From positions 124,001 to 188,000 of the forward strand of contig NZ_CP033367.1 in the NCBI RefSeq assembly GCF_013170845.1: 64,000 bases of DNA, given 5' to 3'. This DNA is from Mesorhizobium loti R88b (GTDB taxonomy: Bacteria; Pseudomonadota; Alphaproteobacteria; Rhizobiales; Rhizobiaceae). Shown here in pieces: positions 25,039 to 33,800 of this stretch; position 1 is the stretch's first letter, and each line of letters starts with the position of its first letter. The position numbers were made by a program, and so were the translations under genes. The notes under the pieces were generated by a model. That model made no database searches, had not been told where the DNA came from, and saw only the letters and a list, made by a program, of their open reading frames with translations.

Positions 25039-26591
25039 TCCCGCGCATCTACATTCCCGGCGATTCCGGCGCGCTGGCGCTGGGTGCGGAAAAGGTCGCC
25101 AAAGCGATCGCAAGTGAACTCGCCGAGCGTGGCATCGAGGCCAAGATAGTGCGCAATGGTTCGCGCGGCGCCTATTTCCTAGAACCGATGGTCGAAGTGG
25201 CGACCGAAAAGGGCCGCGTCGCCTACGGGCCGGTGAAACCCTCCGACGTCAAGAGCCTGTTCGACTCAGGCTTCCTCACGGGCGGCCATCACAAGCGCTG
25301 GCTGGGTGCGCCCGACAAGATCCCGTTCCTCGCCAAGCAGACGCGGCTGACCTTCGCCCGCTGCGGCATCAACGACCCGCTGTCGCTCGACGCCTACAAG
25401 GCGCTCGGCGGGCTGAAGGGCCTGCAGAACGCGGTTGCCATGGCGCCAGCCGACATCGTCAAGCAGGTGACCGAGTCCGGCCTGCGCGGCCGCGGCGGCG
25501 CCGGCTTCCCGACCGGCATCAAGTGGAAGACGGTGCTGGATACGACATCCGACCGCAAATACATCGTCTGCAACGCCGATGAAGGCGACAGCGCCACTTT
25601 CGCCGACCGCATGATCATGGAAGGCGACCCCTTCGTGCTGATTGAGGGCATGGCGATCGCCGGCGTCGCAACTGGCGCCACCAAGGGCTTTGTCTATATC
25701 CGCTCGGAGTATCCGCATGCGGTGGCCATGATGAACAAGGCTGTCGAGGTCGCCCGCAAAGCCGGCGTGCTCGGCGTCAATGTGCTGGGTTCGCCCAATG
25801 CCTTCGACATGGAAATCCGCGTCGGCGCCGGCGCCTATGTCTGCGGCGAGGAAACATCGCTCTTGAACAGCCTGGAAGGCAAGCGCGGCGTGGTGCGCGC
25901 CAAGCCGCCGCTGCCGGCCATCCAGGGCCTGTTCGGCAAGCCGACGGTGATCAACAACGTCATCAGCCTGGCCTCCGTGCCCATCATCATGGACAAGGGT
26001 GCCGCCTTCTACAAGGATTTCGGCATGGGCCGCTCGCGCGGCACGATCCCGATCCAGATCGCCGGCAACGTCAAGTTCGGCGGCCTGTTCGAAGCGGCCT
26101 TCGGCATGACGCTGGGCGAAATCGTCGATGATATCGGCGGCGGCACGGCAACCGGCCGGCCGGTGAAGGCCGTTCAGGTCGGCGGGCCGCTCGGCGCCTA
26201 TTTCCCGCGCAGCCTGTTCAACACGCCGTTCGACTATGAAGCCTTCGCCGCCAAGGACGGGTTGATCGGCCATGCCGGCATCACCGTGTTCGACGACACC
26301 GCCGACATGCTGAAGCAGGCGCGCTTTGCCATGGAATTCTGCGCCATCGAGAGCTGCGGCAAGTGCACGCCCTGCCGCATCGGCTCGACGCGCGGCGTCG
26401 AGACGATCGACAAGATCGCCGGCGGCATCGAGCCGGAAAAGAACATCGCGCTGGTCACGGACCTCTGCAACACGATGAAATTCGGTTCGCTCTGTGCGCT
26501 GGGTGGCTTCACGCCCTACCCGGTGATGAGCGCGCTCAACCATTTCCGCGATGATTTCAAGCCGGCGCCCGTCGCCGAAGCAGCAGAATAG
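25035..26591 (+). CDS. fdsB: NAD-dependent formate dehydrogenase beta subunit
   Basis: This 518-residue NuoF-like flavoprotein binds FMN, NAD and a [4Fe-4S] cluster and reduces NAD+. It has a thioredoxin-like N-terminal region (1-90) fused to the NuoF core. The glycine-rich site is GLRGRGGAGFPTGIKW (149-164), followed by CNADEGDSATFADR. Cluster cysteines lie in ESCGKCTPCRIGSTRG near residue 440, with a fourth in TDLCNTMKFGSLCALGG. The start overlaps the fdsG stop by four bases. A longer frame into fdsG is out-of-frame translation. Confidence 0.95.
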   Translation: MIPRIYIPGDSGALALGAEKVAKAIASELAERGIEAKIVRNGSRGAYFLEPMVEVATEKGRVAYGPVKPSDVKSLFDSGFLTGGHHKRWLGAPDKIPFLAKQTRLTFARCGINDPLSLDAYKALGGLKGLQNAVAMAPADIVKQVTESGLRGRGGAGFPTGIKWKTVLDTTSDRKYIVCNADEGDSATFADRMIMEGDPFVLIEGMAIAGVATGATKGFVYIRSEYPHAVAMMNKAVEVARKAGVLGVNVLGSPNAFDMEIRVGAGAYVCGEETSLLNSLEGKRGVVRAKPPLPAIQGLFGKPTVINNVISLASVPIIMDKGAAFYKDFGMGRSRGTIPIQIAGNVKFGGLFEAAFGMTLGEIVDDIGGGTATGRPVKAVQVGGPLGAYFPRSLFNTPFDYEAFAAKDGLIGHAGITVFDDTADMLKQARFAMEFCAIESCGKCTPCRIGSTRGVETIDKIAGGIEPEKNIALVTDLCNTMKFGSLCALGGFTPYPVMSALNHFRDDFKPAPVAEAAE

Positions 26592-26601
26592 GAACCACAC
26601 C

Positions 26602-29478
26602 ATGGGTCTCATTCAAGAAATCGACTTCGGCACGCCGGCCTCGACCTCGCAGAAGCAGGTGACGCTGACCGTCGACGGCTTCACCGTCACCGTGCCGGAA
26701 GGCACCTCGATCATGCGCGCCTCGATGGAGGCCGGCATCGCCATTCCGAAGCTTTGCGCCACCGACATGGTCGACGCCTTCGGCTCCTGCCGGCTCTGCC
26801 TGGTCGAGATCGACGGCCGCAACGGCACCCCCTCCTCCTGCACGACGCCGGTGGCGCCTGGCATGGTGGTGCACACCCAGACCGGCCGGCTGAAGGACAT
26901 CCGCCGCGGCGTGATGGAGCTCTACATCTCCGACCACCCGCTCGACTGCCTGACCTGTGCCGCCAATGGCGACTGCGAGTTGCAGACGCAGGCCGGCGTC
27001 GTCGGCCTGCGCGACGTGCGCTACGGCTATGAGGGCGACAATCACGTCTTCAAGAAGAATGACGGCGCTGAAAACTTCAAACGGATGGCGAAAGACGAGT
27101 CCAACCCGTACTTCACCTATGACCCGACGAAATGCATCGTCTGCTCGCGCTGCGTGCGCGCCTGCGAAGAGGTGCAAGGCACCTTCGCGCTGACCATCGA
27201 GGGCCGTGGTTTCGGCAGCCGCGTGTCGCCCGGCATGCACCAGTTGTTCATCGACTCGGAATGCGTCTCCTGCGGCGCCTGCGTGCAGGCCTGCCCGACG
27301 GCGACACTGTCGGAAAAGTCGGTCATCCAGATCGGCCAGCCCGAGCATTCGATGGTCACCACCTGCGCCTATTGCGGCGTCGGCTGCCAGTTCAAGGCCG
27401 AGATGCGCGGCGACGAGCTGGTGCGCATGGTGCCCTACAAGGACGGCAAGGCCAATCGCGGCCATAGCTGCGTCAAGGGCCGTTTCGCCTACGGCTATTC
27501 GACTCACAAGGACCGCATCCTCAACCCGATGATCCGCGAGAAGATCACCGATCCCTGGCGCGAAGTGTCATGGGAAGAGGCGCTGACCTACACCGCAAAC
27601 GAATTCCGCCGCATCCAGTACCAGTATGGCCGCACGTCGATCGGCGGCATCACTTCGTCGCGCTGCACGAATGAGGAAACCTATCTGGTGCAGAAGCTGA
27701 TCCGCCAGGGCTTCCGCAACAACAATGTCGATACCTGCGCCCGGGTCTGCCATTCGCCGACCGGCTACGGCCTCGGCCAGACCTTCGGCACCTCGGCCGG
27801 CACGCAGGATTTCGATTCGGTCGAGCACACCGATGTGGTGATGGTCATCGGCGCCAATCCGGCGGCGGCCCACCCGGTGTTCGCCTCGCGGCTGAAGAAG
27901 CGGCTGCGCAAGGGCGCCAAGCTGATCGTGCTCGATCCGCGCCGCACCGAGATGGTCAAGTCGGCGCATATCGAGGCGGAGTATCACCTGCCGCTGAAGC
28001 CCGGCACCAATGTCGCCGTTGTCACCTCGCTGGCGCATGTCATCGTCACCGAAGGCCTGTTCGACGAGAAGTTTATCCGCGAACGCTGCGACTGGGATGA
28101 GTTCCAGGACTGGGCCTCGTTCGTGGCGCTGCCGGAAAACAGCCCCGAAGTCGTCGGCAAGCTCGCCAATGTCGACCCGGAACTGATCCGTGGCGCAGCG
28201 CGGCTCTACGCCCGTGGCGGCAATGGCTCGATCTATTACGGCCTCGGCGTCACCGAGCACAGCCAGGGTTCGACCACCGTCATCGCCATCGCGAACCTTG
28301 CCATGGCGACCGGCAATATCGGTCGCCCTGGCGTCGGCGTGAACCCGCTACGCGGCCAGAACAATGTGCAGGGCTCCTGCGATATGGGCTCTTTCCCGCA
28401 TGAATTGCCGGGCTATCGCCACGTTTCGGGCGACGCGGTGCGCGACATCTATGAGACCTTGTGGGGCGTCAAGATCGACGACGAGCCGGGCCTTCGCATT
28501 CCCAACATGCTGGATGCCGCCGTCGATGGCTCCTTCAAAGGCCTCTATGTGCAGGGCGAGGACATCTTGCAGTCGGACCCCGACACCAAGCATGTCGCCG
28601 CCGGCCTTGCCGCGATGGAATGCGTCGTCGTGCACGATCTCTTCCTCAACGAGACCGCCAATTACGCGCATGTCTTCCTGCCGGGCTCGACCTTCCTCGA
28701 GAAGGACGGCACCTTCACCAATGCCGAACGCCGCATCAACCGCGTGCGCAAGGTGATGGCGCCGAAGAACGGCCTGGCCGACTGGGAAGTGACGCAGAAG
28801 CTCGCCCAGACGATGGGGCTGAACTGGAACTACCAGCATCCGTCGGAAATCATGGACGAGATCGCCATGACGACGCCGAGCTTCGCCAAGGTTTCCTACG
28901 ATTATCTGGAGAAAATGGGCTCGGTGCAGTGGCCCTGCAACGACAAGGCGCCGGAAGGCACGCCAATCGTCCATGTCGACGGCTTCGTGCGCGGCAAGGG
29001 CAAGTTCATCCGCACCGAATATGTGGCGACGGACGAGAAGACCGGACCGCGCTTCCCGCTGCTTTTGACCACCGGCCGTATCCTAAGCCAGTACAATGTC
29101 GGCGCGCAGACACGGCGCACCGACAACGTCATGTGGCACTCGGAAGACCGGCTGGAGATCCATCCGCACGACGCCGAGAATCGCGGCCTGCGCGATGGCG
29201 ACTGGGTGCGGCTGACCAGCCGCTCGGGCGAGACGACGCTGCGGGCGCTGATCACCGACAAGGTGTCGCCGGGCGTGGTCTATACGACCTTCCACCATCC
29301 GGACACGCAGGCCAACGTCATCACCACCGACTTCTCCGACTGGGCAACCAACTGTCCGGAATACAAGGTCACGGCCGTGCAGGTCGGCGCCTCGAACGGC
29401 CCGTCGGACTGGCAGCGCGACTATAATGAGCAGGCCGAGCAGAGCCGCCGCATCGCGACGTTGCAGGCAGCGGAGTAG
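26602..29478 (+). CDS. fdsA: NAD-dependent formate dehydrogenase alpha subunit (molybdenum)
   Basis: This 958-residue catalytic subunit oxidises formate to CO2 at a bis-MGD molybdenum site. N-terminal clusters: [2Fe-2S] C52, C63, C66, C80; a NuoG-like H112-C116-C119-C125 site; two ferredoxin-type [4Fe-4S] sites (C178/181/184/188 and C221/224/227/231); and the formate-dehydrogenase site C255/C258/C262/C290. The molybdenum ligand is probably the cysteine of ARVCHSPTGYG (C383), an ordinary cysteine rather than selenocysteine. MGD-binding stretches include GQNNVQGSCDMGS. The ATG lies ten bases after the fdsB stop with GGAA before it. Confidence 0.96.
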   Translation: MGLIQEIDFGTPASTSQKQVTLTVDGFTVTVPEGTSIMRASMEAGIAIPKLCATDMVDAFGSCRLCLVEIDGRNGTPSSCTTPVAPGMVVHTQTGRLKDIRRGVMELYISDHPLDCLTCAANGDCELQTQAGVVGLRDVRYGYEGDNHVFKKNDGAENFKRMAKDESNPYFTYDPTKCIVCSRCVRACEEVQGTFALTIEGRGFGSRVSPGMHQLFIDSECVSCGACVQACPTATLSEKSVIQIGQPEHSMVTTCAYCGVGCQFKAEMRGDELVRMVPYKDGKANRGHSCVKGRFAYGYSTHKDRILNPMIREKITDPWREVSWEEALTYTANEFRRIQYQYGRTSIGGITSSRCTNEETYLVQKLIRQGFRNNNVDTCARVCHSPTGYGLGQTFGTSAGTQDFDSVEHTDVVMVIGANPAAAHPVFASRLKKRLRKGAKLIVLDPRRTEMVKSAHIEAEYHLPLKPGTNVAVVTSLAHVIVTEGLFDEKFIRERCDWDEFQDWASFVALPENSPEVVGKLANVDPELIRGAARLYARGGNGSIYYGLGVTEHSQGSTTVIAIANLAMATGNIGRPGVGVNPLRGQNNVQGSCDMGSFPHELPGYRHVSGDAVRDIYETLWGVKIDDEPGLRIPNMLDAAVDGSFKGLYVQGEDILQSDPDTKHVAAGLAAMECVVVHDLFLNETANYAHVFLPGSTFLEKDGTFTNAERRINRVRKVMAPKNGLADWEVTQKLAQTMGLNWNYQHPSEIMDEIAMTTPSFAKVSYDYLEKMGSVQWPCNDKAPEGTPIVHVDGFVRGKGKFIRTEYVATDEKTGPRFPLLLTTGRILSQYNVGAQTRRTDNVMWHSEDRLEIHPHDAENRGLRDGDWVRLTSRSGETTLRALITDKVSPGVVYTTFHHPDTQANVITTDFSDWATNCPEYKVTAVQVGASNGPSDWQRDYNEQAEQSRRIATLQAAE

Positions 29479-29480
29479 TC

Positions 29481-30311
29481 TTGGCCGCGCGCCGCAAAGC
29501 AACGACGCAGATATCGCGGCTGGCGCACCGCGCCAGCGGCACGGCTGCGGCCAACCGCATGGTGCCGGAGGAGACGCCGGTGGCGTTCTCCTTCGCCGGC
29601 ACAACGCATGCGGTGATGATGGCGAGCCCCGCCGATTTCGAGGATTTCGCGCTCGGCTTCTCGCTGACCGAAGGCATCATCGCCGACCCGCAAGAAATCG
29701 AGGCAATCGAGGTCGAGGATCATGGAGCCGGCATCGACATCCAGATCCGGCTGAAGGACACTGCCAACACGCGCTTCGAGGCGCGGCGGCGCAGGCTGGC
29801 CGGGCCGGTCGGTTGCGGGCTGTGCGGCATCGAATCTATCGAGGAAGCGATGCGCTCGGTCGACGCCGTTGGTACGTCAAAACTTACGCTTGATGCCAAC
29901 GATATCGTCCGCTCTGTCAAGTTGTTGTCAAAGGTGCAGCCGCTGCACAGCGAAACCGGAGCCGTGCACGCTGCCGGCTTCTATATTCCCGGCAAGGGTG
30001 TCGTCATGGCGCGCGAGGATGTCGGCCGCCACAACGCGCTGGACAAACTGGCCGGCGCACTGGCCAAAGCCGGCATCGACGGCACTTCGGGTGCTGTCGT
30101 GGTGACGTCGCGCGTGTCGGTCGAAATGGTGCAGAAGACGGCAGCCATCGGCGCGGCCTTCATCATTGCCGTCTCGGCGCCGACCGCGCTTGCCATCCGC
30201 ACGGCTAATGAGGCTGGCATGACGCTGGTGGCGCTGGTGCGCGGTGATGATTTCGATGTTTTCACCCACCCTGACCGGGTGGTCTTGGGAGTTGCCCAGC
30301 ATGTCGCATGA
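29481..30311 (+). CDS. fdhD: Formate dehydrogenase accessory sulfurtransferase FdhD
   Basis: This 276-residue cytosolic protein (FdsC in fds operons) transfers sulfur to, or protects, the molybdenum cofactor before insertion into FdsA. The catalytic CxxC is in GPVGCGLCGIES. Other family features are FALGFSLTEGII, SETGAVHAAGFY, VAREDVGRHNALDKL-like REDVGRHNALDKL, and VVTSRVSVEMVQKTA. The start is TTG, two bases after the fdsA stop, with GGAG in the end of fdsA. Its 3' end overlaps fdsD by 11 bases. Confidence 0.94.
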   Translation: MAARRKATTQISRLAHRASGTAAANRMVPEETPVAFSFAGTTHAVMMASPADFEDFALGFSLTEGIIADPQEIEAIEVEDHGAGIDIQIRLKDTANTRFEARRRRLAGPVGCGLCGIESIEEAMRSVDAVGTSKLTLDANDIVRSVKLLSKVQPLHSETGAVHAAGFYIPGKGVVMAREDVGRHNALDKLAGALAKAGIDGTSGAVVVTSRVSVEMVQKTAAIGAAFIIAVSAPTALAIRTANEAGMTLVALVRGDDFDVFTHPDRVVLGVAQHVA

Positions 30312-30648
30312 CGAAGACCACATCACGAGCACCAGCGAGAAGCTGGTGCGCATGGCCAACCAGATCGGCACCTTCTTCCAGTCCAAGCCGCGCGAAGAAG
30401 GTATCGCCGGCACCGCCGAGCACATCAACAAGTTCTGGGAACCCCGGATGCGGCGGCAGTTCTTCGAGATGCTGGACGGCGGCAGCACGGCGTTCAACGA
30501 ACTCGTCGTGGCCGCCTCAGCAAGAATCCGGCGGCCGAACGCGCCGGAAGGTCCGGGATTCAGCGCCCAAGTCGAAGCTGGGGCGCCGGGCGGCAAGGGC
30601 ACCGCAGCGGGCGAGTCAACCGCCGAGATCGCCGCTTCGCAGAAATAG
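30301..30648 (+). CDS. fdsD: Formate dehydrogenase delta subunit
   Basis: This 115-residue protein matches the small FdsD subunit needed for active enzyme: KLVRMANQIGTFFQSKPREE, then EHINKFWEPRMRRQFFEML. The first 65 residues hold the conserved domain. The C-terminal 45 residues are Pro/Gly/Ala-rich and probably disordered. The ATG lies inside the end of fdhD (11-base overlap) with GGGAG upstream, so translation is likely coupled. It closes the fds operon. Confidence 0.9.
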   Translation: MSHDEDHITSTSEKLVRMANQIGTFFQSKPREEGIAGTAEHINKFWEPRMRRQFFEMLDGGSTAFNELVVAASARIRRPNAPEGPGFSAQVEAGAPGGKGTAAGESTAEIAASQK

Positions 30649-30762
30649 GGCCTGCAGCGCCACCGGCCTATATTCACACGCTCTAAAGTTTAGCCTGCCG
30701 CAAATGGCACGGCTCTGCTATGGTTGACGATCAGAAATCGTCAGGCCGGGCGGAAGAAACTC

Positions 30763-32316
30763 GTGAGGCCGATCGAGACCCGATATGCCCTCAGTGGCGA
30801 GGTGCGGATCGCCTATCAGGTGGTCGGCCAAGGATCGTTCGATCTCGTCTTCGTGCCAGGCTTCATTTCCAATCTCGACCTGCATTGGGAAGACGAGGGC
30901 TATTCCAGGCTCTTGAAGCGGCTTTCGGCGTTCTCACGGCTGATCCTGTTCGACAAACGCGGCACCGGCCTTTCCGACCGTGTCGATGCACACAACCTGC
31001 CCAGCCTCGAAACGCGTATGGACGACGTGCGCGCGGTGATGGATTCGGCCGGCAGCGGCCGAGCCGCCCTGCTTGGCGCTTCAGAAGGCGCGCCGATGGC
31101 AATGCTGTTCGCCGCCACCTATCCCGAACGGACGCGAGCCTTGGCGCTCTATGGCGGCTATGCGCATTTCCACAAATGGGTGATGCCGCCGGAACGCCTC
31201 AACGCCTTCATCTTGACCGCCGAGACGGCCTGGGGCACCGGTGCCACCTTGCCCAATTTCGCGCCGGGCCGGGTGGACGACGTGCATTTTACCCAGTGGT
31301 GGGCGCGTTTCGAGCGACTGTCGGCGAGCCCGACCGCGGCAGCGGCTCTGGCGCGAATGAATGCGGAAATCGACGTGCGTGGCGTACTGGCGGCGATCAG
31401 CGCGCCGACGCTTTTGATCCATCGCCGCAACGATGCGCGGGTCGATCCCGACGCCAGCCGCTTCCTGGCCAAGAAAATCTCCAATGCGCGGCTGGTCGAG
31501 ATTCCGGGGCGCGATCATCCGATCTGGACCGGCGATGTCGACCGGGTGGCCGACCTGATCGAGGAGTTCCTGACCGGCGAGCGCGCCGTTGCCGAAGCGG
31601 ATCGCGTGCTGGCTGCACTCCTGGTGACGCGCATTTACGATACGACGCGGATGGGAGACCGTATGTGGAGCGAACGCAGCGAGCGCTTCCAGGAAACCTG
31701 GCGGTCGCTGGTCGGGCGCCATGGCGGCCGCGCGCTGGGTACGCAGGGCGAAATGATGATTTCTCGCTTCGATGGGCCGGCGCGCGCCATACGCTGTGCG
31801 GCGGCCCTACGCGAGGCGGCGCAAGGGATCGGCGTGGCCAGCGCGCAGGGCGCGCATGTCGGGGAGATCGAACTGCGCGGGCCGCCAGTGGGGCTGACCG
31901 CCCGGGTGACGATGCAGCTTGCCGCGCACGCCAGCCGAGGCGATATCCTTGCGTCGCGGCTGGTTGCGGATCTGGCAACCGGCTCTGGCCTGCATTTCGA
32001 AGACGCCAGCCGGGTCACGCTGGACGATCTGGACGAGCCGATGGCGCTGGTGCGGGCAATGTCGGAACAGCATCTGGAGCCCGACTGCCGCACAAGGACC
32101 AAAACGACCGCCTCGGCCGTGCTGACGGCGAGGGAAAGCGAAGTGGTGAGCCTGGTTGCCGACGGCAAGAGCAATGCCGCGATTGCCGCCGAACTCAGGC
32201 TGAGCGAGCACACGGTCAAGCGTCACGTCGCCAACATATTGCTCAAGCTCGACCTGCCGTCGCGGGCGGCGGCGGCGGCATTCTCCGCCAGGCACACTGG
32301 CCCGGACGGGCCATGA
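30763..32316 (+). CDS. Alpha/beta hydrolase - degenerate class III cyclase - LuxR HTH fusion protein
   Basis: This 517-residue protein has three parts. Residues 1-275 are an alpha/beta hydrolase: nucleophile S107 in LLGASEGAP, acid likely D224, histidine H252 in GRDHPIW. Residues 285-430 resemble the nucleotide cyclase domain often fused to such hydrolases, ending [19 protein letters not shown] and [13 protein letters not shown]. The metal aspartates seem lost: LFTDIVGST-like is LVTRIYDTT here, and TTGDGF-like is GTQGEMM. Residues 453-510 are a LuxR/GerE helix-turn-helix ([20 protein letters not shown]). It therefore looks like a DNA-binding sensor with a substrate pocket rather than a signalling enzyme. 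The GTG start has GGAAG upstream; a TTG 13 codons earlier is possible. Confidence 0.87.
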
Positions 32317-32426
32317 GAGCCATGGCGCTTTCGGGCGAAGCGGCCATGCCGAGGTAAACGCTATCAATTCCCCCATGCAGGCCAAGGGCGGATATTGCCG
32401 GGAAGGCGCTGCGAACGGAGGATGAA

Positions 32427-32906
32427 ATGCTCAAGTCAAAACTGAATGTCAGGTCACTGGTGATCATGGCAGGCATTGGCGCGCTGTTCACGATCACTCC
32501 CGCAAAGGCCGAGGATGCGTCGGCGGCAGCCGCTTACAAGGACATCCAGGCAACGCTTGGCTCGGTGCCGGACATGTTCAAGACCTTGCCTGATGTCGCG
32601 ATTGCCGGCGCCTGGGCCGAGATAAAAGGCGTGCAGCTCAACCCCAAGACCGCGCTCGACGGCAAGACCAAAGAGCTGATGGGCCTCGCGGTCGCATCGC
32701 AGATCCCATGCCAGTACTGCATCTATTTCCACACCGAGGCCGCCAAGCTCAACGGCGCCAGCGACGAGGAGATCAAGGAGACGATCGCGATGGCGGCGAT
32801 CGTGCGCCACTGGTCGACGATGCTCAACGGCAGCCAGGTCGATCTCGCGACCTTCAAGAAGCAAACCGACGACGTCTTCGCGGCCGTCAAGGCGAAGTCG
32901 CAGTGA
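32427..32906 (+). CDS. Exported carboxymuconolactone decarboxylase/AhpD-like protein
   Basis: This 159-residue protein starts with a Sec signal peptide (MLKSKLNVRS, a hydrophobic core, then TPAKA and cleavage near residue 28). The mature part carries the full AhpD/CMD motif E-x11-C-x2-C-x3-H, ending PCQYCIYFHTEAAKLNGAS. Proteins with this motif have peroxidase or disulfide-exchange activity. Most are cytosolic, so an exported one is less common. A good GGAGGA precedes the ATG. It follows the hydrolase/LuxR gene by 110 bases and probably heads a small operon that this regulator may control. Confidence 0.88.
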   Translation: MLKSKLNVRSLVIMAGIGALFTITPAKAEDASAAAAYKDIQATLGSVPDMFKTLPDVAIAGAWAEIKGVQLNPKTALDGKTKELMGLAVASQIPCQYCIYFHTEAAKLNGASDEEIKETIAMAAIVRHWSTMLNGSQVDLATFKKQTDDVFAAVKAKSQ

Positions 32907-32987
32907 AAGGCACTGCCCGTCGATAAGCGCCGGGCAGACTTCCAAATATCAACCGCCCGATCATGAAGACGGGCCATGGAGGATAAA

Positions 32988-33350
32988 ATGCTGACCAAGA
33001 CCCAAGTCGTTGATGGCGCCGCGATCAAGAAGGCGATCGAAACCCGCGACGGCAAGATGCTGTCGAGCTTTTATGCCGACGACGCGGTGGTGCGGGTGAT
33101 CGACCGCAACAACCCACCGAGCAAGCCGCGCGAAGTCCGCGGGCGCGCGGCGATCGCTACCTTCTGGGACGACATCTGCAGCCGGGCGATGACCCACAAG
33201 GTCGACACCACGATTGCCGACGGCGACAGCCTCGCCTTCACCCAGGCCTGCGCCTATCCGGATGGCACGAAAGTGTTCGCCGCGGCGATGCTGGAGCTGA
33301 AGAACGGCCGCATTGCGCGGCAGACCGTCGTGCAGGCCTGGGACGAGTGA
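32988..33350 (+). CDS. Nuclear transport factor 2-like (SnoaL-type) protein
   Basis: This 120-residue protein shows the NTF2-like cone fold pattern: an N-terminal helix (VDGAAIKKAIETRDGKMLSS), then FYADDAVVRVID, GRAAIATFWDDI and a final strand set (AAMLELKNGRIARQTVVQAW). The cavity of this fold is used by isomerases, cyclases and binding proteins, so no reaction can be given. GGAGGATAAA precedes the ATG, nearly the same leader as the AhpD-like gene upstream. No signal peptide is visible. Confidence 0.83.
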   Translation: MLTKTQVVDGAAIKKAIETRDGKMLSSFYADDAVVRVIDRNNPPSKPREVRGRAAIATFWDDICSRAMTHKVDTTIADGDSLAFTQACAYPDGTKVFAAAMLELKNGRIARQTVVQAWDE

Positions 33351-33357
33351 GGCCGCC

Positions 33358-33672
33358 ATGTTCAGCGCCAGATGGCAGATCGACGCCAAGTTCGGGCACA
33401 AGCAGACCGTGCTCGAACTGTTGAAGAAATGGGAACGTGAGATCGGCTCGCAGGTCGGCATTGCCGATCTGCAATTCCAGATCATGACGGGATCGATCGG
33501 CGCTCGGGAAGCGACGGTCGAATCGCATCACCAGGTCGAGAGCCTGGCCCAGTTGGAGGCGTTCTTCGCCAAGATCGGCAAGATCGACGCGCACGCCAAA
33601 TGGGGCAAGGAGATGGAGCCGTACGTCGTGTCAGGCACCAGCCTGTGGAATATCTATCGCATTGTGGAGTAG
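33358..33672 (+). CDS. Small protein, possibly dimeric alpha/beta-barrel fold (104 aa)
   Basis: This 104-residue protein begins MFSARWQIDAKFGHKQTVLE, seven bases after the NTF2-like gene. The pattern of strand, helix (LELLKKWEREIGSQVG), two strands and helix (SLAQLEAFFAKIGKIDAHAK) then WGKEMEPYVVSGTSLWNIYR is like a NIPSNAP or antibiotic-monooxygenase-type ferredoxin fold. I cannot name a family with certainty. No signal peptide or cysteines. It ends the small operon after the AhpD-like gene. Confidence 0.75.
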   Translation: MFSARWQIDAKFGHKQTVLELLKKWEREIGSQVGIADLQFQIMTGSIGAREATVESHHQVESLAQLEAFFAKIGKIDAHAKWGKEMEPYVVSGTSLWNIYRIVE

Positions 33673-33747
33673 TGGCTCTTCTTCCCGTTACTGGGAGACG
33701 ATGCCGGCAGGCAGACGAGGGGCGGAGCCAGCTTCGACAAGCTTGTG

Positions 33748-33800
33748 CTGCCCCTCATCCGGCGCTTCGGGCCACCTTCTCCCCGTAAACGGGGAGAAGG
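33748..33800. repeat. Dispersed palindromic repeat, copy 1
   Basis: The unit starts CTGCCCCTCATCCGGC, contains a CTTCGGGC segment, and ends with a 12-bp perfect stem (CCTTCTCCCCGT paired with ACGGGGAGAAGG, 2-base loop). A near-identical unit occurs at 57418-57469. Here it fills the gap between two convergent operons, where it may also stop transcription from both sides. I recognise such elements as common in Mesorhizobium chromosomes. Confidence 0.75.

Follow-up and report, generated by a model that had tools for sequence, protein, structure and literature searches.

A hydrolase-cyclase-LuxR fusion protein of Mesorhizobium loti R88b as a probable one-component regulator with a conserved operator-like element behind its gene

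A gene of Mesorhizobium loti R88b raises the question of whether a protein composed of an alpha/beta hydrolase, a class III cyclase-like domain and a LuxR-type DNA-binding end still serves as an enzyme or has become a transcription factor for the genes behind it. The gene lies in a stretch of 64,000 nucleotides (contig NZ_CP033367.1, positions 124,001 to 188,000, forward strand), which is referred to here as the window and to which all coordinates relate. Sequence comparison suggests the second answer as the fairly probable one, namely a one-component regulator whose sensor would be the hydrolase fold, with the cyclase domain as a non-catalytic hinge leading to a GerE domain that acts at a conserved element. 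This element, found behind the regulator gene and again at a second promoter, is what is new in this work. The features concerned are the following.

30763..32316 (+): regulator gene, encoding an alpha/beta hydrolase, a degenerate class III cyclase domain and a LuxR/GerE end
30775..31578 (+): hydrolase domain, residues 5-272, with the triad S107/D224/H252
31603..32064 (+): degenerate cyclase homology domain, residues 281-434, with R290 (31630-31632) and E330 (31750-31752) replacing the metal aspartates
32116..32280 (+): GerE helix-turn-helix (HTH), residues 452-506, Pfam GerE at 8e-17
32298..32343 (+): operator-like element, the dyad TGGCCCGGACGGGCCA (32298-32313) over the last regulator codons, followed by TGGCGCTTTCGGGCGAAGCGG (32323-32343)
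32427..32906 (+): AhpD-like protein with a CMD domain, its probable signal peptide recognised by eye
32988..33350 (+): SnoaL_2/NTF2-like protein, PF12680 at 43.1 bits against a cut-off of 27
33358..33672 (+): small protein of dimeric alpha/beta-barrel (ABM/NIPSNAP-like) fold, according to a fold model

The first-pass annotation of this DNA, made from the sequence alone, had described an intact hydrolase triad, a class III cyclase-like domain with replaced metal aspartates and a LuxR DNA-binding end, and all three descriptions held. The alpha/beta hydrolase fold with its Ser-Asp-His triad was recovered by Pfam, by an orthologue alignment and in the fold model, and S107/D224/H252 were invariant in 123/123 orthologues. 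This set comprised the distinct full-length orthologues, i.e., sequences of less than 480 residues or less than 55% identity were dropped and identical sequences counted once. The GerE domain scored 61 bits against a Pfam cut-off of 23.5, and no autoinducer-binding domain as in quorum-sensing LuxR proteins appeared among the 15 Pfam families that matched with an E value of 1 or less. Fold comparison indicated that the cyclase homology domain retains its fold, and the cyclase part alone matched LipJ and Ma1120 in the PDB. The NCBIfam LipJ model gave the whole regulator 269 bits, which does not reach the cut-off of 800 bits.

The residues on which cyclase chemistry usually depends were located by alignment to the LipJ chain and by the orthologue alignment, with the metal and transition-state positions taken also from what is generally understood of class III cyclases. 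After this alignment the catalytic aspartates were not intact. The first metal position was Arg in 121/123 orthologues (His and Gly once each, Asp in 0/123), the second was Glu in 117/123 (Asp four times, Ala and Gln once each), and the position of the transition-state Arg, Q385 in this protein, was Gln in 108/123. A wider set of 55 sequences, reaching down to 59% identity and overlapping with the 123 orthologues, had Arg at the first position in 52/55, an acid at the second in 46/55 and both in 43/55, with R at the transition-state position in 21/55. Moreover, the first metal position ranked among the 30 most conserved of the 154 cyclase-domain sites. Since the same Arg, together with an acid at the second position, recurs in both sets, the lost aspartate was not left drifting: a conserved Arg took its place, mostly with an acid at the second position. 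The pair of R290 and the acid may form a salt bridge which substitutes for the metal. In the wider set, the linker EQHLEP (435-440) was less variable than the mean of any domain. Over 150 pairs, the median omega was lowest in the HTH (0.067), followed by the hydrolase (0.097) and the cyclase part (0.161); therefore, the cyclase part is still under purifying selection, though the least of the three parts. Thus, the earlier proposal that the cyclase part had become a sensor or hinge is borne out in part: the usual catalytic residues are gone, yet purifying selection persists (omega 0.16), and the role of sensor or hinge stays a suggestion.

A tree of 45 hydrolase domains points to how this form arose. 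All 29 LuxR-tailed rows formed one clade (100/99), which in the sampled tree amounts to a single origin of the LuxR-tailed form, as judged from a small HTH-less sample (n=11) and with some branches being long. Both metal aspartates were kept in 11/11 rows without a DNA-binding domain and in 0/34 rows with one, the register of the alignment being less sure in the BTAD rows. The latter, five proteins with an N-terminal module which we take by eye to be BTAD-like, formed a separate clade (100/100) and might represent a second conversion to a regulator. They carry the order BTAD-like module, hydrolase and damaged cyclase (L031, L034, L035, L036, L043), and 0/5 keep both aspartates. A single LuxR-tailed protein, L242 from the draft genome G594, has Ala at the nucleophile position and retains both the gene linkage and the element.

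Three genes follow the regulator in the same direction, and the AhpD-like, SnoaL/NTF2-like and small barrel-like proteins named for them in the first-pass annotation were all recovered. The AhpD-like protein has a CMD domain and, as had been claimed, the full E-x11-CxxC-x3-H motif, which was present in 23/25 loci with an AhpD match (26 loci examined); the cut-off for true AhpD (TIGR00777) was not reached, with 19 bits against 192. The model of the small protein, a monomer only with a mean pLDDT of 85.2, matched 5k9f (TM 0.76, E 1.1e-3) and 2ap6 (TM 0.75, E 9.9e-4) in fold; it had no Pfam match and thus no Pfam family of the ABM/NIPSNAP-like fold.

Linkage was counted in 146 Mesorhizobium species genomes, of which 112 had a match to the regulator (108 near full length, 4 partial or split). 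AhpD matches below about 60% identity were regarded as paralogues and left out of the count, and the same was done with the NTF2 match of G089, which is split, and with second pieces of other split matches. The NTF2 gene followed the regulator on the same strand within 1500 bases in 110/112 genomes; the two exceptions are partial regulator matches, one of which begins at base 1 of its contig. AhpD lay within 300 bases of the regulator in 98/112 genomes, including one truncated copy (G140), and NTF2 and the small gene were adjacent in 119/119 genomes having both. Outside Mesorhizobium, AhpD and NTF2 followed the regulator in 16/16 loci, i.e., 12 named loci (Aminobacter, Chelativorans, Pseudolabrys, Elioraea, Xanthobacteraceae and uncultured Rhizobiales), two further genomes of the order and two plasmids (Shinella, Phyllobacterium). 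No match to the small gene was seen in 8 of these 16 loci. Linkage is hence strongly conserved, within the genus and beyond it. The flanking genes differ among the wider surroundings inspected, except that Aminobacter shares the upstream FdhD-like gene, and because of these differing flanks the regulator and its cassette have the look of a module that is complete in itself and can be transferred. In a set of 72,556 plasmid records, an AhpD match of at least 60% identity (E 1e-15) occurred only on the Shinella and Phyllobacterium plasmids, both times adjoining the regulator.

Across genera, comparison of the spacers between regulator and AhpD gave the element the consensus TGGCCCGnnCGGGCCAT, about 7 bases and TGGCnCnTTCGGGCGAAGCGG, with an inside spacing constant to within about 1 base and a conservation exceeding what the encoded proteins would suggest. 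In Mesorhizobium and Aminobacter the first arm overlaps the last regulator codons (GPDGP), whereas the element stands past the stop codon in Pseudolabrys, Xanthobacteraceae, Chelativorans, Shinella, Phyllobacterium and L242, and about at the stop in a few others. A first matrix, built from 96 distinct sequences of copies behind the regulator, gave 215 matches above 20 bits across all loci, a count in which many loci repeat one genome and training rows are included. Of these, 203 lay behind the regulator and 4 behind split or truncated regulator matches. Three genomes contributed 6 matches downstream of the small gene, and the remaining 2, of 48.5 and 20.2 bits, were close to the element but on the other strand. 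Among 3.86 million positions of the reversed control, 0 scored above 20 bits, and in the window the match at 32298 (79.4 bits) was the sole one above 15 bits. A second matrix, built from 78 Mesorhizobium rows alone and applied to the other loci, is the fairer test. With it, the second half of the element exceeded the highest score among 4000 control windows, 10.5 bits, in 13/16 non-Mesorhizobium loci and the score of 99% of controls, 1.2 bits, in 16/16; taking all loci with an HTH match together, at least 15 bits were reached in 206/211.

The element was kept in 12/12 AhpD-less regulator loci inspected. It was absent from the stretches around HTH-less and BTAD relatives, from two loci with NTF2 and the small gene alone, and from eight loci with regulator and AhpD deleted, where the deletion removes its site. 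The exact 16-base dyad occurs in the own genome just at this site, and when 297 genomes of the order were scanned with a pattern of the element, 8/8 matches fell at this cassette, 5 of them following the regulator and 3 following the small gene. Judged by this distribution, the element behaves like the operator of a small regulon.

Two promoter-like boxes accompany the regulator and the element.

30716..30724 (+): extended -10-like box TGCTATGGT, the likely promoter of the regulator gene
32362..32367 (+): -10-like TATCAA, the putative promoter box of the AhpD operon, with a presumed start near 32374

In an alignment of 116 upstream regions, TCTGCTATG was conserved at the -10-like box of the regulator, and similar TGNTATG boxes were seen by eye upstream of the regulator in several other genera. 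In front of AhpD, a box resembling CTATCAATTC stood at a fixed offset of 26-27 from GGCGAAGCGG in 49/96 rows (strict pattern). Taking TATCAA as the -10 puts the midpoints of the two halves of the element at about -43 and -68. Such positions are a usual place for LuxR-type activators, as in the -42 rule for LuxR. The copies of the element behind the small gene precede a fourth gene on the same strand, which encodes a FAD_binding_4/BBE oxidase (e.g., L147:9324-10730). The element was present in 22/22 distinct upstream regions of this oxidase of at least 170 bases, ending 130-137 bases before the start codon, and the pattern made for this gene had no other match in the 1.94 Mb of loci scanned, nor any match in the reversed control. 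A regulator that acts on the cassette would lead one to expect such an element before the AhpD genes and before a second gene. The FAD oxidase gene is absent at this place in the strain of the window and was not sought elsewhere in its genome. In L142, which belongs to another genus, a relative of the FAD oxidase with 49% identity adjoins a relative of the small gene, and no regulator match was found in the examined stretch.

Several observations weigh against a regulator acting at this element. The linker 436-451 has a pLDDT below 50 in the fold model of the regulator. Some training rows of the first matrix score below 20 bits (minimum -2), L171, L217 and L252 (3/16 non-Mesorhizobium loci) stay below the best control of the second matrix, and the strict pattern fits 5/10 sampled genomes with a LuxR-tailed match. 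Allowing at most 2 mismatches, the dyad is only somewhat commoner in the genome than in the reversed control (106 versus 73), and the helices of the element show no covariation above shuffles. The pattern for the FAD oxidase gene was composed after its copies had been seen, the strains are close relatives (86-100% protein identity) and the first arm is only imperfectly kept in these copies. Because of the close strains and the late pattern, it is the resemblance between the two promoter sites that carries weight, more than the count of 22/22. The cassette itself is not uniform either. No AhpD match was found in 13/112 regulator genomes, 12 of which have a gap of just 101-418 bases between regulator and NTF2, and M. 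albiziae (L143), a distant form under the Mesorhizobium name, keeps NTF2 and just a fragment of AhpD. As AhpD is thus the least constant gene and the one most often lost, the term redox cassette, an idea which the first-pass annotation had drawn from AhpD, may overstate its role. Furthermore, NTF2 and the small gene each occur without a full regulator match in 10 Mesorhizobium genomes, and 5/8 small-gene matches outside Mesorhizobium (L135-L142) lack a regulator within 3.3 kb; since both genes persist without the regulator, some independent use follows.

Losses at the locus were also observed directly. Eight Mesorhizobium deletions (L119-L125 and L129, in genomes G028, G016, G049, G035, G032, G053, G059 and G084) remove the greater part of the regulator together with some or all of AhpD, while the small gene is left intact. 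Six of them retain NTF2, whereas its start is clipped in L125 and L129 gives no match to it. The end points are the same in two genomes and differ in the others, and several events are therefore likely.

Other explanations have to be set against the same evidence. That the protein is still mainly a hydrolase enzyme, with GerE serving autoregulation or targeting, the neighbours forming a catabolic or detoxification set and the element belonging to another regulator, is unlikely in our estimation. Such an enzyme would account for the triad being invariant in 123/123 orthologues, for the hydrolase domain being the most selected after the HTH and for the enzyme-like neighbours, but L242 lacks the nucleophile and keeps linkage and element all the same, and the element is retained where AhpD is lost. 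A slightly smaller chance is given to a cyclase domain which has ceased to catalyse and still binds nucleotides, so that the regulator would read ATP, GTP or a cyclic nucleotide with the hydrolase as a bystander. The kept cyclase fold agrees with this, as does the conserved Arg, which could contact a phosphate; nevertheless, the positions specifying the base are variable and conservation is higher in the hydrolase than in the cyclase domain.

The element might, with similarly low probability, act as RNA, i.e., as an attenuator or 3' processing site, instead of an operator. Its arms 1-2, 2-3 and 3-4 are able to pair in turn and it lies at or just past the stop codon, yet the missing covariation is joined by the lack of an Rfam match in 30600-33800, a second copy stands before the FAD gene, and the -10-like box follows downstream at fixed spacing, which would leave the element outside a transcript starting there. 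An RNA helix was set aside, as were three other candidates. A short peptide from the conserved stretch after the regulator was dismissed as the cause of its conservation, as the overlapping ATG is lost with a TAG or TAA stop (25 and 6 of 123 rows) and the variants would replace Ser by Leu or Gly by Ser and in one case introduce a stop. For an intergenic element repeated in the own genome, the next best matches have 3 mismatches and are no more numerous than in the reversed control. Upstream inverted repeats as operators of the regulator were confined to 5/116 rows for CTAAANTTTAG and 23/116 for TGACGA-N-TCGTCA. The window has such an inverted repeat, TGACGATCAGAAATCGTCA, at 30725-30743, downstream of the -10-like box and ahead of the start of the regulator gene, and 23/116 rows have one like it.

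The preferred one-component regulator builds on features read from the sequences: the domain make-up with its triad and without the metal residues, an origin which is single in the sampled tree, the gene linkage, and an element that occurs at two promoters; ligand, dimer, DNA binding and activation are what we infer. A LipJ-type enzyme would have acquired a DNA-binding end of the LuxR/GerE type while giving up cyclase chemistry. The hydrolase pocket would take up a small ligand resembling an ester or lactone and bind or cleave it, and the change would be relayed by the cyclase domain, in which the fold is kept, the dimer probably kept and the metal site replaced by R290 and the acid at 330. 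The GerE dimer would then act at the element at 32298-32343, directly in front of the promoter for AhpD, NTF2 and the small gene; the copy before the FAD-linked oxidase gene would be a second site of action in some strains. More tentatively, and in our view somewhat doubtful as a whole, these proteins could form a separate class of one-component regulators with an Arg-acid hinge and a covalent or cleaving receptor of the D14/KAI2 kind for a lactone or ester signal, mobile together with their own operator and targets, the BTAD clade being a second independent conversion.

Further genes surround the locus. Directly upstream (26551-30648) lie genes which, judged by eye, presumably encode a formate dehydrogenase alpha subunit, an FdhD-like protein and a small subunit-like protein; the FdhD-like gene is found upstream in Mesorhizobium and Aminobacter and not in more distant loci. 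A convergent aldehyde dehydrogenase gene follows the small gene. An AhpD paralogue (51-53% identity) adjoins a divergent gene in L245 and L246, that of L245, the one scanned, being a TetR-type regulator. A role in anti-phage defence was rejected, as the PADLOC matches (best 1.7e-9) fall in the HTH or hydrolase parts.

If the proposed regulator holds true, it would offer a worked example of the conversion of an enzyme into a transcription factor, with relatives retaining the cyclase residues persisting in the same genus, and possibly an equivalent, in bacteria, of the hormone receptors built on a hydrolase. With the predicted 46-bp operator the proposal becomes directly testable, in a root-nodule bacterium that is not a pathogen, and a route to the ligand may open. 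Many such proteins are annotated as 'alpha/beta fold hydrolase' and one as 'Adenylate cyclase', labels which hide the likely regulatory role.

In the open literature, as far as titles and the beginnings of abstracts tell and with most subscription papers outside this scope, nothing was recognised on this regulator architecture or gene set. The NTF2 genes named in PMC8436566 are plasmid-listed and may be other genes than the cassette NTF2 gene. Among known systems, LipJ (Rv1900c; PDB 1ybt/1ybu) is likewise a hydrolase joined to a class III adenylyl cyclase and has Asp at both metal positions of the aligned chain, whereas the regulator has both aspartates replaced, a GerE end added and a score far under the LipJ cut-off. 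The closest proteins found outside the clade are HTH-less alphaproteobacterial hydrolase-cyclases (e.g., L232 and L238; 51-53% identity over about 425 residues), which keep the FTDI and GDG motifs and have no AhpD, NTF2 or element within the surrounding 4.3-6.0 kb. The Mesorhizobium BTAD proteins resemble the regulator in joining a hydrolase and a damaged cyclase to an apparent DNA-binding module, and differ in that the module is N-terminal and BTAD-like and the clade a separate one. With LuxR/GerE one-component regulators the protein shares the GerE domain, but its sensor would be a hydrolase and cyclase fold, with no autoinducer-binding domain among the Pfam matches. Finally, the hydrolase fold and triad would fit receptors of the D14/KAI2/RsbQ type, a role which is proposed here by analogy. 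D14/KAI2/DAD2 and RsbQ act via protein partners; the regulator, in contrast, has its output domain fused on.

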